Assembly (NCBI RefSeq): GCF_900105595.1
Contig: NZ_LT629784.1
Span: forward strand, 124,001-188,000
DNA length: 64,000 nucleotides
Reading direction: 5' to 3'
Source of the DNA: Stappia sp. ES.058
Lineage (GTDB): Bacteria; Pseudomonadota; Alphaproteobacteria; Rhizobiales; Stappiaceae
Shown here: positions 12,420 to 32,390 of the stretch, piece by piece
How positions within the stretch are numbered: position 1 is the first letter of the stretch
How the letters are laid out: the number at the start of each line of letters is the position of its first letter
Program-made: the position numbers and the translations under genes
Notes under the pieces: generated by a model
Database searches by the model: none
What the model was told of the DNA's origin: nothing
What the model saw: only the letters and a program-made list of their open reading frames with translations

Positions 12420-13331
12420 ATGCGCATGGAACTCTGGATCCCGATCACGATTTTTGCGGCGTTTTGTCAAAATGCCCGCTCAGCTCTGCAAAAACACCTG
12501 AAAGGCCGGCTCGGCACCACGGGCGCGACCTTCGTGCGCTTCGGCTACGGCTTTCCCTTCGCGCTTGCCTATCTGGCGCTGCTGCACCTCGGCCTCGGGC
12601 ATTCCCTGCCTTTGCCGGGCGCGGAGTTTTGGGTCATCGGGGCAGCGGGCGGGCTGGCGCAGATCGCGGCGACCTTCCTTCTGGTGCATCTCTTCAGCTA
12701 CCGCAACTTCGTGGTCGGCACGGCCTATTCCAAGACAGAGCCGGTCCAGGCGGCGGTCTTCGGCCTCGTCTTCCTGGGCGAGACGGTGACCGCGATGGCC
12801 GCCTTCGCCATCGCCATTGGCGTTGCGGGCGTTGTGATCATCTCGCTCGCGGGCCAGCGCGTCGGGGTGAAGAGTGTCGTTGCCGCCCTTACCGGCCGTC
12901 CCGCGCTGATCGGACTGGCGTCCGCCGCGCTCTTCGGCGTCTCGGCGGTCTGTGTGCGCGGCGCGTCGCTGTCGCTTGGCGGGCCGGATTTCCTGATGCA
13001 GGCCGGCTTCACGCTTGCCTATGTGACCGTCTTCCAGACGCTGGCGATGGGCGTGTGGATGATCTGGCGCGAGCCGGATCAACTGGCCGCGAGCCTTGCG
13101 AGTTGGCGGACCGCGGTCTGGGTCGGCCTGTCGGGAGTGGCAGGTTCCGCCGGCTGGTTCACGGCGATGACGCTGCAGCAGGTCGCCTATGTGCGCGCGC
13201 TCGCCCAGATCGAGCTGGTTTTCACCTTCCTCGTTTCCTGGATCGTCTTCCGCGAACTGGTTCGCCCGGCCGAGGCCGGGGGCGCGCTGTTGATCGTCGC
13301 CGGCATCGTCATCCTGCTTCTGGGCGTGTGA
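12420..13331 (+). CDS. EamA/DMT-superfamily transporter
   Basis: A 303-residue protein with about ten predicted membrane segments in two EamA repeats (about residues 8-145 and 155-302). The second repeat ends in the expected [18 protein letters not shown] motif, where the conserved Glu sits near the end of the ninth span. Members export or import amino acids, nucleotide-sugars or other metabolites, and nothing here tells the substrate. ATG codons at 12420 and 12426 are both usable. It converges on the phnA-like gene, with six bases between stops. Confidence 0.85.
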
Positions 13332-28624: not shown

Positions 28625-28701
28625 GCACCGGTAGCTCAGCTGGATAGAGCACCAGACTACGAATCTGGGGGTCGGGGGTTCGAATCCTCCCCGGTGCGCC
28701 A
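28625..28701 (+). tRNA. tRNA-Arg (anticodon ACG)
   Basis: A complete 77-base cloverleaf: acceptor GCACCGG pairing with CCGGTGC, D arm GCTC-AGCTGGATA-GAGC, anticodon arm CCAGA-CTACGAA-TCTGG with anticodon ACG, and T arm GGGGG-TTCGAAT-CCTCC. The discriminator is G and CCA is encoded. Its last nine bases are part of the 15-base direct repeat that bounds the island downstream. Confidence 0.97.
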
Positions 28702-28707
28702 TTTCTC
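28693..28707 (+). repeat. attL-like direct repeat (tRNA side)
   Basis: GGTGCGCCATTTCTC: the last nine bases of tRNA-Arg and six downstream bases. An identical copy occurs at 32376-32390. Sequence diverges immediately on both sides (ATTTT here, CTGAA at the other copy). Confidence 0.85.
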
Positions 28708-29094
28708 ATTTTTAGGCATTTCTTCCCTTTAACGCATTGTTTTCGATAATCTATTTGAGTTTGAACGAGGCTGTTTTTCGGCGCCAAGCCTTTGGTCAAA
28801 AAAGTGATTCAAAGCGATAGGCGCAATCGATTCTGAACCTTGCAACTCCCTGTAAAACTGCGGCTTTTTAAATTTACTTTCGGAGTTCGAACTTTTTTGA
28901 AATTCCGTGCTGGGGGCGCTGCCCCCAACGCCACTTCAAGCGGAATCAGCATGACCGTGGCTCGTTGCACTGCGCCCGCACCACCCATGCAGATTTCGCT
29001 TTCCATTCTGCCCCCCGTGTTCGCCACAGGGCAGGGAGGCAAGGCCTTGCCTCCCGATTTGTATTCGGGAAGCGGAATTTCGTATTCTCAATCC
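28708..29094. other. island left end with palindromes
   Basis: No gene with coding character is seen in these 387 bases. Two perfect palindromes stand out: TGGGGGC-GCT-GCCCCCA (28911-28927) and a 22-base palindrome at 29034-29055 (GGGAGGCAAGG and its complement). They may be terminators, protein-binding sites or parts of a transfer or replication region. Confidence 0.5.
29034..29055. repeat. 22-base perfect palindrome
   Basis: The sequence GGGAGGCAAGG is followed at once by its exact reverse complement. It lies 39 bases upstream of the small gene at 29095 and has no T-run after it, so a role as operator or cruciform is at least as likely as termination. Confidence 0.6.
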
Positions 29095-29349
29095 ATGAAA
29101 AATTTCAAATACACAAACGACGATGTGGCCTGGTTAGAGCCAATGGACTACCAAGGATTTTGGGTGGCGATTGCGCCCTATAACCTTGTGCTGCAAGACC
29201 GTGGTCATTGTGACGACCAAATCGCCCGCGGCCTTGTCGACGAGGCCACTGTTTTGAATGTTCTCAAGGCTATGGCTCGGATGGAACTGGCTAAACGCCA
29301 TGAATTGCGCTGGAAATCTGCAATACCTTGGCTCAAAGTGGTGAAGTAA
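29095..29349 (+). CDS. small orphan protein in island
   Basis: An 84-residue cytosolic protein without signal or membrane segment. It is aromatic-rich at the front (TNDDVAWLEPMDYQGFWVAIAPY) and helical at the back (ATVLNVLKAMARMELAKRHEL). I do not recognise a characterised family, although proteins of this style recur in alphaproteobacterial mobile elements. The ATG at 29095 has only a weak ribosome-binding site. An earlier in-frame start at 28840 would read through the palindromes and is unlikely. It is followed by a cluster of hairpins. Confidence 0.55.
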   Translation: MKNFKYTNDDVAWLEPMDYQGFWVAIAPYNLVLQDRGHCDDQIARGLVDEATVLNVLKAMARMELAKRHELRWKSAIPWLKVVK

Positions 29350-29705
29350 TACAAGTCAGATTGAGTTGTTATCGCTGACCGCAAGATGTGCGTGGTAGTA
29401 CCACGCATCTTGGCAAGGGAGACGCTGGCGCTCTCCCGTTGCATCCCTCTCGACCTGGCCCGGATCAGGCCTTGAGCCCTCCCGCGCCACTCAACCGCAT
29501 CGCCGGTTGACCACTCGCAAGGGAGACCTCGCTCTCCCTGCACCCATCGATCAAAAGGCGTTCCTGCCCTTTGAAATCCTGACCAACCATTCGCCGTTTG
29601 GATGCCGTCAACGCATCGGCGCTGAACCAGGGCCGCCGTAACAACCCAAGGCACTCGAGAATGCTCAGCTTGCTATCGGCTCTAGCCGACTGCAGCTCGA
29701 ATCGC
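29350..29705. other. hairpin-dense non-coding stretch
   Basis: These 356 bases hold no convincing gene but at least four hairpins. They are AAGATG(T)GCGTGGT-AGT-ACCACGCATCTT (29383-29411), GGGAGACGC-TG-GCGCTCTCCC (29417-29437), TCAACCG-CATCG-CGGTTGA (29491-29510, one base of slack) and GGGAGA-CCTCGC-TCTCCC (29521-29538). The second and fourth share the wording GCAAGGGAGAC...CGCTCTCCC, so they are imperfect repeats about 104 bases apart. This resembles non-coding regions of plasmids and integrative elements. A transfer origin or a non-coding RNA is possible but not shown. Confidence 0.5.
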
Positions 29706-30455
29706 TCAGGTTCGGTTGGCGGTGAGCCAACTTGTAAGTTCCTGTTCGCCGCTGTTCGTAATGTGAAATAGACTGCTTGCTGATTTGTGCACGAGCCTGC
29801 CAACACACAGCTTATCAAGTGACTTTGTGACAGACGATGGGCTGCATTTTGCGCTAGCACCTAACTGTGATCGCGACAGTCCACCCGGCTTTGCGTGAGC
29901 CAATAACATCAATAACTCTTTTTCGGCCGGCACCTTTTTGCTCACAAACGTTTCATCACCAATGGACTCGACAAATGGCAGCATGGAACGAGTCAAGGCC
30001 AGCATCACCTGGGCGACCTTGCTCTCTTCGCCGTGGTGGAAAAGCCTGACAAACTCCGCCAGTATCCAACCAGCGCCGTTCGCCAATAAGGCAGCATCTA
30101 TTCCAGTGGGGTCAACTTGCTTGACGTGGACTGCATTCCGCTTGCTCCGGATATTATATATGAGGCCATATGCAGCCCTTGGTATCAAGAACCTCAATGC
30201 ATCATCGAGCGACGCATCCTGTTCGATATGCGCCATCGTGGTCTTCACCGACTTAATCTCCGCTGGTGCGGCTCCAGTTCTGATATGTTCAATTGCTCGA
30301 AAGGTGTGTTCTACGAAGCGGCCGCCCTGAGTTAACGCCTCCTCGTTCTCTCCCGCTTGAAACTTGGATACTAATTTCTCGTAGGTACGAACTAGATCCT
30401 CCGCAAGTGAACTGGGAATTACGGTGGAGAGATCCTTTATCAGCTCATCCCTCAT
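29706..30455 (-). CDS. HEPN-like plus winged-helix protein of unknown function
   Basis: The 249-residue third gene of the island operon; I know no named family. Residues 1-165 are predicted all-helical and contain YNIRSKRNAVHVKQVDP (about residues 101-117), where RSKRNAVH fits the HEPN RNase pattern Rx4-6H with the polar Asn after Arg. Residues 175-249 (from EKELLMLLAHAK through SLDKLCVGRLVHK to the end) look like a winged helix of MarR style. A nuclease effector with a DNA- or RNA-binding tail is a reasonable guess, not an established function. Its ATG overlaps the upstream gene's stop (ATGA, 30452-30455), so translation is coupled. Confidence 0.65.
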   Translation of the reverse strand: MRDELIKDLSTVIPSSLAEDLVRTYEKLVSKFQAGENEEALTQGGRFVEHTFRAIEHIRTGAAPAEIKSVKTTMAHIEQDASLDDALRFLIPRAAYGLIYNIRSKRNAVHVKQVDPTGIDAALLANGAGWILAEFVRLFHHGEESKVAQVMLALTRSMLPFVESIGDETFVSKKVPAEKELLMLLAHAKPGGLSRSQLGASAKCSPSSVTKSLDKLCVGRLVHKSASSLFHITNSGEQELTSWLTANRT

Positions 30456-31177
30456 TCGCTGACAGCCTTATAAAGCCAAACGTCTTTCTTGCCGACCTTT
30501 GCCTTTTTTCGGGTCAGCTTACCATCCCTTACTAGGTCTGCTATAGGTCCCGATAGAGAGGTTTTTTTGGCATTAATGGCCATTTCTTGAAGTCGATCAA
30601 ATACGTCAAGAAGAGAGCGTTCTTGCTCAAACCAACCGTCAGAGAGTATCTTGTTGAGTGAGCTCCTTATTGGAATTCCGGTACGTTTTCGCTCCTTAGG
30701 TGCCTTGACATCACTCCGAGCGGCGGCATCATCGCCTGTCCCTTTCGACATCACCTTAGGTTTGGTGCGTCGGGCGGTGTATGTGCTTGAAGGAGCTGAT
30801 TTGGCGCCACTTATGATTTTCGCAATCGCTTCCAAATTCGCGGTGCGAACGGCGTAGTGGCCGCCTACGACTGTCAACAGGTGTTGATCTTTCAATTTCT
30901 TTAGGATCGGCCGCAAGCTTCCGCCAGCGATCCCCAAAGCCACTTCAAGATCGGCAGGTTTAGTTTTTGGATCGAGGTTCTCATCCAAAATATACCGCCA
31001 ACCCAACATCCCGACGAGATATACAAGTACTTTATTCTCATTGCTCAGGGAGGTTCCATCTGGCGTGAACACGATCTCCTTTGTTTGAGGATCGTACCGG
31101 ATATAAAGTGAAACTATGTCCTCTATTCGTTCTTCTGTGATCTTGTCATGATCTGCAACTAAATCCTTTAGGGCCAT
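30452..31177 (-). CDS. unknown protein with two predicted winged-helix segments
   Basis: The 241-residue second gene of the island operon. Residues about 45-120 (ENKVLVYLVGML through SLRPILKKLKDQHLLTVVGGHYAV) have the helix-helix-wing order of a winged helix. A basic, low-complexity linker follows (about 125-170, rich in Lys, Ser, Thr and Ala). Residues 172-241 (SSLNKILSDGWFEQERSLLDVF through LSGPIADLVRDGKLTRKKA) form a second such segment. No enzyme motif is visible. GCGGAGGAG stands just before its ATG, inside the end of the preceding gene's region. It probably works as an adaptor or nucleic-acid-binding partner of its operon mates (inference). Confidence 0.65.
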   Translation of the reverse strand: MALKDLVADHDKITEERIEDIVSLYIRYDPQTKEIVFTPDGTSLSNENKVLVYLVGMLGWRYILDENLDPKTKPADLEVALGIAGGSLRPILKKLKDQHLLTVVGGHYAVRTANLEAIAKIISGAKSAPSSTYTARRTKPKVMSKGTGDDAAARSDVKAPKERKRTGIPIRSSLNKILSDGWFEQERSLLDVFDRLQEMAINAKKTSLSGPIADLVRDGKLTRKKAKVGKKDVWLYKAVSE

Positions 31178-31187
31178 TTCTCCTCCG

Positions 31188-31664
31188 CTACTTTTTCTTA
31201 AATGAATTTTGCACCAAACCGATGCCCGATTTCGTTACGTAGAAGTAACCCGCATTCTGGTGTGCGGGAGCTATCGCCCCAGACTTTAGGGCGAGATTGA
31301 AGTCGCGAGGAAAATTCGCTGGCATAGGTTCTTTTGCCAAAGAAAATCGTGACTTAATATCATCTTTTGAAAATGCGGTTAGACCTTCGTGTAAAGACAT
31401 AAAGTGGCCGATTGCTACGATCTGATCGGGCTTTTTACTAGCGTTCACCTCGTCCAGGTACTCCCTCAGCGAAACTGGGGCCTCGGAGGAGGCGGACGGG
31501 GCGCCAGTCGGAGCTGCATTGCCAAGGCCGGGCGCTGGAGTTCCGCCGAGCACCAAATGCATAATGTGGGCAGCCGTCGCCGAATTAACCTTCCTCTGTA
31601 TACTTATGCCTGAGCCGCTGAGGGTCAGTTCGAACGCCTCACTACTATCTTGTGCTTCTTCCAT
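31188..31664 (-). CDS. unknown two-domain small protein, first gene of island operon
   Basis: A 158-residue protein. An N-terminal beta-beta-alpha segment (FELTLSGSGISIQRKV then ATAAHIMHLVLGG, about residues 11-41) is joined by an Ala/Pro/Gly/Ser-rich linker (about 42-62) to a C-terminal domain of about 90 residues. That domain reads as a winged helix (YLDEVNASKKPDQIVAIGHFM, KDDIKSRFSL, LALKSGAIAPA, YFYVTKSGIGLVQ). I do not recognise a characterised family. It is promoter-proximal, with a -35/-10 pair at 31694-31722 and AGGA before the ATG. Ten bases separate it from the next gene. Confidence 0.65.
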   Translation of the reverse strand: MEEAQDSSEAFELTLSGSGISIQRKVNSATAAHIMHLVLGGTPAPGLGNAAPTGAPSASSEAPVSLREYLDEVNASKKPDQIVAIGHFMSLHEGLTAFSKDDIKSRFSLAKEPMPANFPRDFNLALKSGAIAPAHQNAGYFYVTKSGIGLVQNSFKKK

Positions 31665-31693
31665 TTGGTCCTCGATTCTTTAAAGCAGCTTGA

Positions 31694-31722
31694 ACGATAT
31701 GGACTTGGTGCCGGCTTGTCAA
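31694..31722 (-). promoter_or_regulatory. promoter of the island operon
   Basis: On the minus strand a perfect TTGACA, a 17-base spacer and TATCGT. Transcription would begin near 31687, about 23 bases before the first start codon. The same -10 (TATCGT) with the same spacing is used in front of the TPP riboswitch, so host sigma-70 should read it. Confidence 0.72.
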
Positions 31723-32375
31723 TTAAAAGTATGGAGCAACTGCGTTGCGGTATGCGTTTGACAGAATATAAGCCGCGTTTTATGCCCTAAATAAAAGGCA
31801 TATGGCCTCACTTTATGCACAATAAGGTCCTCAATATACATACACGTATAGCGCAACCGACATTTAAAATGAAGAATATATATAAAATAGCGATACAAAA
31901 CAACGTGTTAAAGAGCCGTAATTCGTCATGGATGGAGAAGGGATAGAGGCAATACGTTGGTGTATGCATCAAATTAGAATAAGGGCTTTGCCCCCGGCGC
32001 GGGCAAGGGCGCGGTCTCCCGAGGCTCCGCGCCCTTCGGGCTTCGTGCACCCGCCGCGCTGGTCCTTGCCCTTGCCACCCCCATTCTCGCCGAAGGGCAG
32101 GGGTTCAGAGGCCTGAACCCCAGATTGGATTTCTCCGTCAACGTCCGAGGGTATGGCCGCGCACTTCTTCGGACAGCCGGATGCAAAACGGCGAGGGCCG
32201 CTTCTTTTTGTCCGGCTTCGGATTCTTCGGTTGTTTGGATTTACGGCTTGCCGCCCTGGAGAATGTCTTTTTTAGGGACATGGCGGCACCGGAGGTTCAT
32301 TGAACCTCAGGTGCTCAAGTTGGGCGTTCCAGTCCGATAAGACCTCGAACAATTGGTTCGAATTTTCATCATCTA
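31723..32375. other. island right end, non-coding
   Basis: About 650 bases without a gene I can support. The first 200 (to about 31930) are very AT-rich with short direct and inverted repeats (for example GGCATATGGCC at 31798-31808). The remainder is GC-rich with runs of Pro- or Gly-like codons and looks like degraded flanking DNA. A 62-codon frame at 31928 has no coding character. Confidence 0.45.
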
Positions 32376-32390
32376 GGTGCGCCATTTCTC
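32376..32390 (+). repeat. attR-like direct repeat
   Basis: An exact copy of GGTGCGCCATTTCTC from the tRNA-Arg end, marking the distal boundary of the island, 60 bases before the stop end of the MFS gene. Confidence 0.85.

Follow-up and report, generated by a model that had tools for sequence, protein, structure and literature searches.

We analyzed a 64,000-nt window of the Stappia sp. ES.058 genome (contig NZ_LT629784.1, positions 124,001-188,000, forward strand), in which three minus-strand open reading frames (ORFs), here called P1, P2 and P3, form an operon running from 31664 to 29706 (Table 1). The original prediction for this stretch had given the three genes a spacing of 10 bases and an overlap of ATGA, and the ORF coordinates bear this out: P1 and P2 are 10 bases apart, P2 and P3 overlap by the four bases ATGA, and all three frames are open. 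It had also given winged helices to all three products. Structure models support this for P3 and for P2, in which two winged helices are joined by a low-confidence linker, and the models resemble MarR/PadR/Fur-like folds. In P1, a beta-strand N-terminus and a winged helix are both putative, having been recognized by eye.

The helical HEPN domain claimed for P3, for which structure prediction had been proposed as a check, held up. The model has an all-helical HEPN fold, and the R-x6-H motif is nearly invariant: of the 117 P3 sequences aligned, 114 keep R103 and 116 keep H110. According to the accessible portion of PMC3710099, a second, acidic Ex3[KR] motif is a rule of the HEPN superfamily. P3 contains a motif of this type, E49-x3-R53, whose glutamate and arginine are each present in 112/117 sequences. 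Pfam models of the HEPN clan matched homologues weakly at E ≤ 0.1 (PF05168 in 3/43, DUF4145 in 1/43; best 0.0097), and none matched the P3 of the window or any of 14 distant members.

None of the three proteins reached Pfam or NCBIfam cut-offs, and none matched a PADLOC 2.0.0 model at E ≤ 0.001; the only PADLOC match was PDC-M16B, at E 0.03, for P2. The statement that no family could be named therefore stands, and the library scans assigned the trio to no housekeeping or plasmid-maintenance family. Sequence searches of the PDB returned no useful relative. The best PDB match of A1, a designed PPR repeat (E 0.0009), was taken as spurious, and weak winged-helix matches came next. A viral fold library gave two unnamed matches to P2 below 1e-3, both with poor superpositions, and a literature search of partial coverage found no title or abstract start describing the trio.

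A profile scan of GTDB contigs yielded 26 loci, 13 close (43-56% identity) and 13 distant (L015-L027). Since the close loci were found through P3, this gene is present in every one by construction. P2 adjoins it in 13/13, with L006 keeping only the P2 C-terminal domain, fused to P1. P1 occurs in 11/13; it was not seen in L012, and a different small protein takes its place in L014. Distances among P1, P2 and P3 sequences are correlated (Mantel r 0.79, 0.61 and 0.75) over 10 of the 14 close (A-type) loci, L005, L006, L012 and L014 being left out as incomplete. Homologues of the trio thus co-occur, as had been anticipated. In protein-database clusters, 40 of 115 P3 contig-length values recur among 120 listed P2 values, where about 1.6 would be expected; this count is a lower bound, as the P2 list holds the best 120 of 197 and one of 116 P3 rows has no length. 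Mean identity decreases from P3 (53%) to P2 (46%) to P1 (38%). The P2 frames of L005 (9306-9752) and L014 (9289-9995) are short or split, which suggests decay or sequencing error.

Profile comparison joined the distant HEPN proteins to the P3 family (99.9%, E 8e-33). By their record titles, L015-L027 belong to Bradyrhizobium, Lysobacter, Acidobacteria, Verrucomicrobia, a cyanobacterium, Myxococcales and others. The R-x6-H spacing is unchanged in the distant proteins, with R present in 120 and H in 119 of the 120 best-listed relatives. Of 7,998 proteins scored, 5,474 belong to this distant HEPN family at E ≤ 1e-3. All readable names in the 120 listed rows are hypothetical or uncharacterized, one row carries a Pfam domain, and NCBIfam matched 0/14 distant members.

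P2 was found in 0/13 distant loci at E ≤ 0.01. In all 13, a small mechanically called ORF overlaps the HEPN frame or ends within about 11 bp of it, and one of these partners matches P1 (L020, 5e-9). Against the distant partner sets, P1 showed a weak profile relationship to A5 (57.9%, E 1e-4); homology with A6 was rejected (0.5%, not significant). Two loci mix the components: L065 encodes a small protein with the P2 C-terminal domain (97.2%), a distant-type partner and P3, and L066 has P2, another partner and then a P3 relative. The sole viral contig found (L060, from IMG/VR, with tail-type genes recognized by eye) carries a P2 homologue of 43% identity, followed by a protein that matches PADLOC PD-T7-3 (1.4e-8) and is unrelated to P3 by profile. 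In the cyanobacterial locus L025 (10926-12987), two similar tandem proteins lie after the distant-type pair, and one of them matches PADLOC PDC-S09. Two ORFs of the neighbour set matched HepT-like_2; we assign both to L025 by interpretation.

The predicted TTGACA-17-TATCGT promoter is present, its end lying some 30 bases upstream of the P1 start codon. By score alone it does not clearly exceed chance (4 promoter-like sites in the region against 2.8 expected, standard deviation 1.5), yet TTGACA is conserved in close loci. It occurs in the last 100 nt upstream in 9/9 A-type loci picked for clear start codons, compared to a shuffle mean of 0.24. Twelve of all 14 A-type loci have it no more than 60 nt from the mechanical start; of the other two, L002 has none and L014 has TTGACG. 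Among 15 other loci compared, only L065 has it similarly placed. Inspection of this region by eye, without statistics, revealed no prominent palindromic operator. Together with the conservation of the housekeeping-type promoter, this suggests standing expression, with control exerted after synthesis.

The operon lies in a low-GC island at a tRNA-Arg gene, the sole tRNA that ARAGORN found in the window. An attachment (att)-like repeat of 15 bp, GGTGCGCCATTTCTC, overlaps the tRNA 3' end, and its second copy at the far border delimits a 3,683-bp unit. GC content drops to 0.509 in 28702-32390, compared with 0.674 on the left flank and 0.652 on the right flank. The original prediction had spoken of a tRNA-bounded island, which is correct for one side; the other border is the repeat rather than a second tRNA. 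None of four island ORFs scanned matched an integrase family, and no island ORF of at least 50 residues resembles the integrase of L008 or L009. Beyond the trio, the island contains four mechanical ORFs of 130-169 residues, one of which (28840-29349, plus strand) was scanned and gave only a weak phrog_15242 match (E 0.005). Noncoding patches of the island (28913-29049, 29373-29575 and 31975-32119) resemble short, mostly alphaproteobacterial plasmid stretches in 33 records, with 71-81% identity in the best 20 of 33 and 95-99% in one further record. They may be repeats or transfer-related sites. A regulatory RNA was considered and rejected, Rfam giving only the tRNA and a sub-threshold antisense match.

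In G007, a genome of the same genus, conservation of the left flank ends within the repeat, at 28705. Some 11.6 kb of different genes then separate this flank from the MFS gene that also comes after the island in the window. Before this MFS gene, about 15 kb of G011 and of G005 are unlike the window, except for a 35-bp piece in G011; the stretches compared fall short of the tRNA. Because other DNA stands between the flank and the MFS gene in relatives, the tRNA-Arg gene appears to be a variable integration site. In G011, relaxase- and MobC-like ORFs (named by eye) occupy L044 (10778-12610) beside a copy of the tRNA 3' end, GGTGCGCCATTTCT, at 12610; they may be part of a mobilisable element there.

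Across the 26 loci, six tRNA or tmRNA genes lie in the 49 kb within 1 kb of the operon, against seven in 359 kb farther off (p = 0.0024; p = 0.0039 at 2 kb and 0.013 at 3 kb). Three loci with different attachment genes, namely the window, L003 and L066, have islands of 2.7-3.7 kb in which no integrase was recognized and no ORF resembles that of L008 or L009. The trio are the sole ORFs of at least 110 residues in the L003 unit, and in L066 the other three (118-151 residues) overlap the operon on the opposite strand. Both units are low in GC (0.475 in L003, flanks 0.61 and 0.59; 0.56 in L066, flanks 0.66 and 0.63). In relatives of L066, the guaA flank ends exactly at the repeat end in two and 8 bases earlier in a third, and other DNA follows. 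An exactly empty site was not found; since different DNA occupies the tRNA site and guaA in relatives, comparison confirms only the inner border of each island.

The repeat searches covered named loci only. Beyond the operon-spanning repeats of an RNA-gene or guaA 3' end in Table 1, no convincing one was found at the sites searched; shorter ones cross the operon in L009 (11 bp) and L013 (13 bp). L006, L027 and L065 have repeats, none of which spans it, and none was found at L010, L011, L012, L015, L020, L021, L022 or L056. A shared element family was rejected: similarity between island DNAs is confined to the coding part, save two short matches between the window and L044. Since the noncoding ends are not common to the islands compared, the operon appears to be carried as cargo by different elements. 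A second copy of the guaA 3' part (G852:C2:177055-177258), some 11 kb downstream of the complete gene, perhaps marks another island at this site. The operon directly adjoins a lepA-like gene (recognized by eye) in both L013 and L056, which come from different genomes; this is possibly another recurrent site.

P3 is patchily distributed, occurring in 1/61 near relatives, 4/385 genomes of the class and 4/347 of the order, with its own genome counted each time, and in 3/398 of the phylum, its own included and one by the winged helix alone. A housekeeping gene was rejected on these counts. A plasmid or phage gene was also discarded as an explanation, as there was no match to P3 in the plasmid and phage collections or to P2 in the plasmid collection. 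A co-directional ORF directly downstream (within 60 bp) is present in 5/26 loci and is of a defence type in three; 21/26 have none, among which L004 and L016 end at or near a contig edge. L018 additionally has an HSDR_N-like gene just upstream (6e-7), with no PADLOC match. We scanned 145 mechanical neighbour ORFs, five per locus at 29 loci, with no control set. At E ≤ 1e-5 they matched 38 PADLOC families, the 25 listed having one or two members each and including many methyltransferase models, and 131 Pfam families, the 25 listed being mainly metabolic.

Table 1. Features of the window (first twelve rows, window coordinates) and of related loci
Feature	Position or extent	Strand	Basis or remark
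tRNA-Arg (acg), integration target	28625..28701	+	ARAGORN; Rfam tRNA 66.5 bits
att-like repeat copy 1, tRNA 3' end	28693..28707		Repeat search; conserved left flank of G007 stops at 28705
Low-GC island without recognisable integrase	28708..32390		GC profile, repeats, ORF comparison
P3	29706..30455	-	249 residues; HEPN domain and C-terminal winged helix (predicted)
P3 winged helix, residues 172-249, MarR/PadR-like	29709..29942	-	Structure model
HEPN domain of P3, residues 7-141	30033..30437	-	Predicted fold
HEPN motif R103-x6-H110	30126..30149	-	Aligned P3 sequences
Second HEPN-type motif E49-x3-R53	30297..30311	-	Aligned P3 sequences; motif described in accessible portion of PMC3710099
P2	30452..31177	-	241 residues; two winged-helix domains, linker of low confidence (predicted)
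P1	31188..31664	-	158 residues; ORF call; homologues in 11/13 close loci
Sigma-70-type promoter TTGACA-17-TATCGT	31694..31722	-	Score and conservation in related loci
att-like repeat copy 2, distal border	32376..32390		15/15 bases identical; G011, G005 and G007 realign from 32442, 32500 and 32521
L003 repeat spanning operon	20 bp, 2,680 bp apart		tRNA-Arg cct
L066 repeat spanning operon	19 bp, 3,013 bp apart		guaA
L008 repeat spanning operon	18 bp, 7,200 bp apart		tRNA-Asn; integrase Pfam-confirmed
L018 repeat spanning operon	133-bp duplication of two tRNAs, 7,205 bp apart		
L012 downstream ORF	Overlaps P3 end		Ymh HEPN, 1e-33; PADLOC PD-Lambda-3_B/Aga_HEPN
L014 downstream ORF			DUF6998, 6e-31; PADLOC mREase_II
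L018 downstream ORF			AbiGi, 1e-5; PADLOC AbiGi
L026 downstream ORF			No Pfam or PADLOC match
L010 downstream ORF			Small partner-like protein; no Pfam match

We propose, with a probability of about 0.48, that P1-P2-P3 is a HEPN-based conflict system, most likely for abortive-infection defence, with P3 as an effector held in check by P1 and P2. Gene order, co-occurrence, motif conservation, the predicted folds of P3 and P2 and the border repeats form its computed basis; the RNase (ribonuclease) activity, the leash with its trigger, the defence role and the movement are what we infer. P3 is the likely effector because its catalytic-type motif is conserved, and its HEPN domain, accompanied by its own winged helix, would cut RNA on dimerisation. 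P2 and P1 are likely binding partners: their sequences change faster, fusions of the two occur, and P2 is also found ahead of a different protein. P2, whose two winged helices sit on a flexible tether, would, like P1, bind nucleic acid or protein. Both would keep P3 inactive until intruder DNA, RNA or protein engaged them, whereupon P3 would be released or activated. A housekeeping-type promoter would keep such a complex standing ready, and the operon may move between bacteria as cargo at integration sites.

This proposal is supported by the variation of the partners, by domains re-fused around the HEPN gene, by the patchy distribution and by the att-type borders. The three defence-type genes downstream of the operon and the PD-T7-3 match after the P2 homologue of L060 also speak for it. 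Several results weigh against it. Among 72,556 plasmids there was no match to P3 or P2 (P1 was not searched there), a phage collection had none to P3 (P1 and P2 were not searched there), and one distant P3 relative likewise matched no plasmid or phage. Moreover, regular placement among defence genes, a check that the original prediction had proposed, was not seen: three of 26 loci have a defence-type gene downstream, and the wider neighbour scan, with no control set, gave mainly scattered single matches. The original interpretation is therefore partly supported, in the linkage of the genes, the predicted HEPN fold and the lack of a housekeeping or plasmid-maintenance match, but a location near defence genes is not supported as a rule.

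The main rival is a toxin-antitoxin-like stabilisation module, in which P3 would be a HEPN toxin and P1 and/or P2 autoregulating antitoxins that keep the island in the chromosome. A putative antitoxin gene that precedes the toxin gene, in overlapping or near-abutting frames, is the layout typical of such pairs; it is seen in the ATGA overlap of P2 and P3 here and in 13/13 distant loci, and addiction would benefit small islands that have no integrase. We nevertheless consider this module unlikely, given three genes instead of two, a toxin candidate with its own winged helix, the empty plasmid search and an operator palindrome that did not stand out by eye. The toxin-antitoxin and defence readings also overlap, because toxin-antitoxin modules often serve defence.

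Quite improbable, in our judgment, is a transcription-regulatory or stress-controller cassette, whose winged-helix proteins would control genes and whose HEPN domain would only be a dimerisation module. Such a role would suit the predicted MarR/PadR/Fur-like winged helices of P2 and P3, and the accessible part of PMC13373217 places the winged helix-turn-helix (wHTH) controllers CapK/CapS upstream of immune operons. However, a near-invariant R-x6-H is unexpected in a mere scaffold, and the 21 loci with no co-directional ORF within 60 bp downstream, counting the two at or near contig edges, also count against it. We find it very hard to believe that the operon is the decayed rest of a once larger mobile element, its genes having ceased to work together: an island with no recognisable integrase and with plasmid-like noncoding patches would be expected of a remnant, but all three frames are open, and the homologues are adjacent and co-varying.

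In a broader reading, the trio may represent a large unnamed immune class spread over numerous phyla. Its HEPN RNase, with a winged helix of its own, would be leashed by small, freely reshuffled winged-helix partners, and the class would reside partly in integrase-free tRNA or guaA islets outside defence islands, and so would have been missed by guilt-by-association. We advance this broader idea tentatively and with some doubt. HEPN-based conflict systems are already known; the architecture, the partner reshuffling and the integrase-free islets would be new. Were it true, thousands of unnamed proteins would form a family of HEPN effectors open to testing, and sensor or leash roles could be mapped among their reshuffled small partners. 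Islets of about 3 kb, lacking an integrase of their own, would then also be a way for defence-type operons to spread outside defence islands, beyond the reach of co-location searches.

P3 resembles the HEPN superfamily of PMC3710099 in its predicted all-helical fold, its R-x6-H and E-x3-R motifs and its short operon with partner genes. It matched none of the families named in the accessible portion of that paper, where the only HEPN-wHTH fusions named belong to restriction-linked or giant proteins (EC042_2821, MTES_1575). Hypoth_Ymh/PD-Lambda-3_B/Aga_HEPN also has a HEPN effector gene, and a Ymh gene overlaps the P3 end in L012, but no model of these matches P3 itself. Similarly, a precomputed Abi_C domain (PF14355) is found on 2/116 P3 homologues, whereas the P3 of the window has no match to it even at E ≤ 1. 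CapK/CapS, as presented in the accessible part of PMC13373217, shares a wHTH protein and a small operon linked to immunity; the trio differs in having no STAS or GHKL match and no fixed downstream immune operon (5/26 loci). Finally, the phage-defence islands integrated at tmRNA and tRNA genes that the accessible part of PMC12595487 describes encode a tyrosine integrase, unlike the 3.7-kb island, in which none was found. They resemble it in the 14-15 bp repeat at the 3' end of an RNA gene, in carrying defence-type cargo and in having no genes for autonomous transfer.
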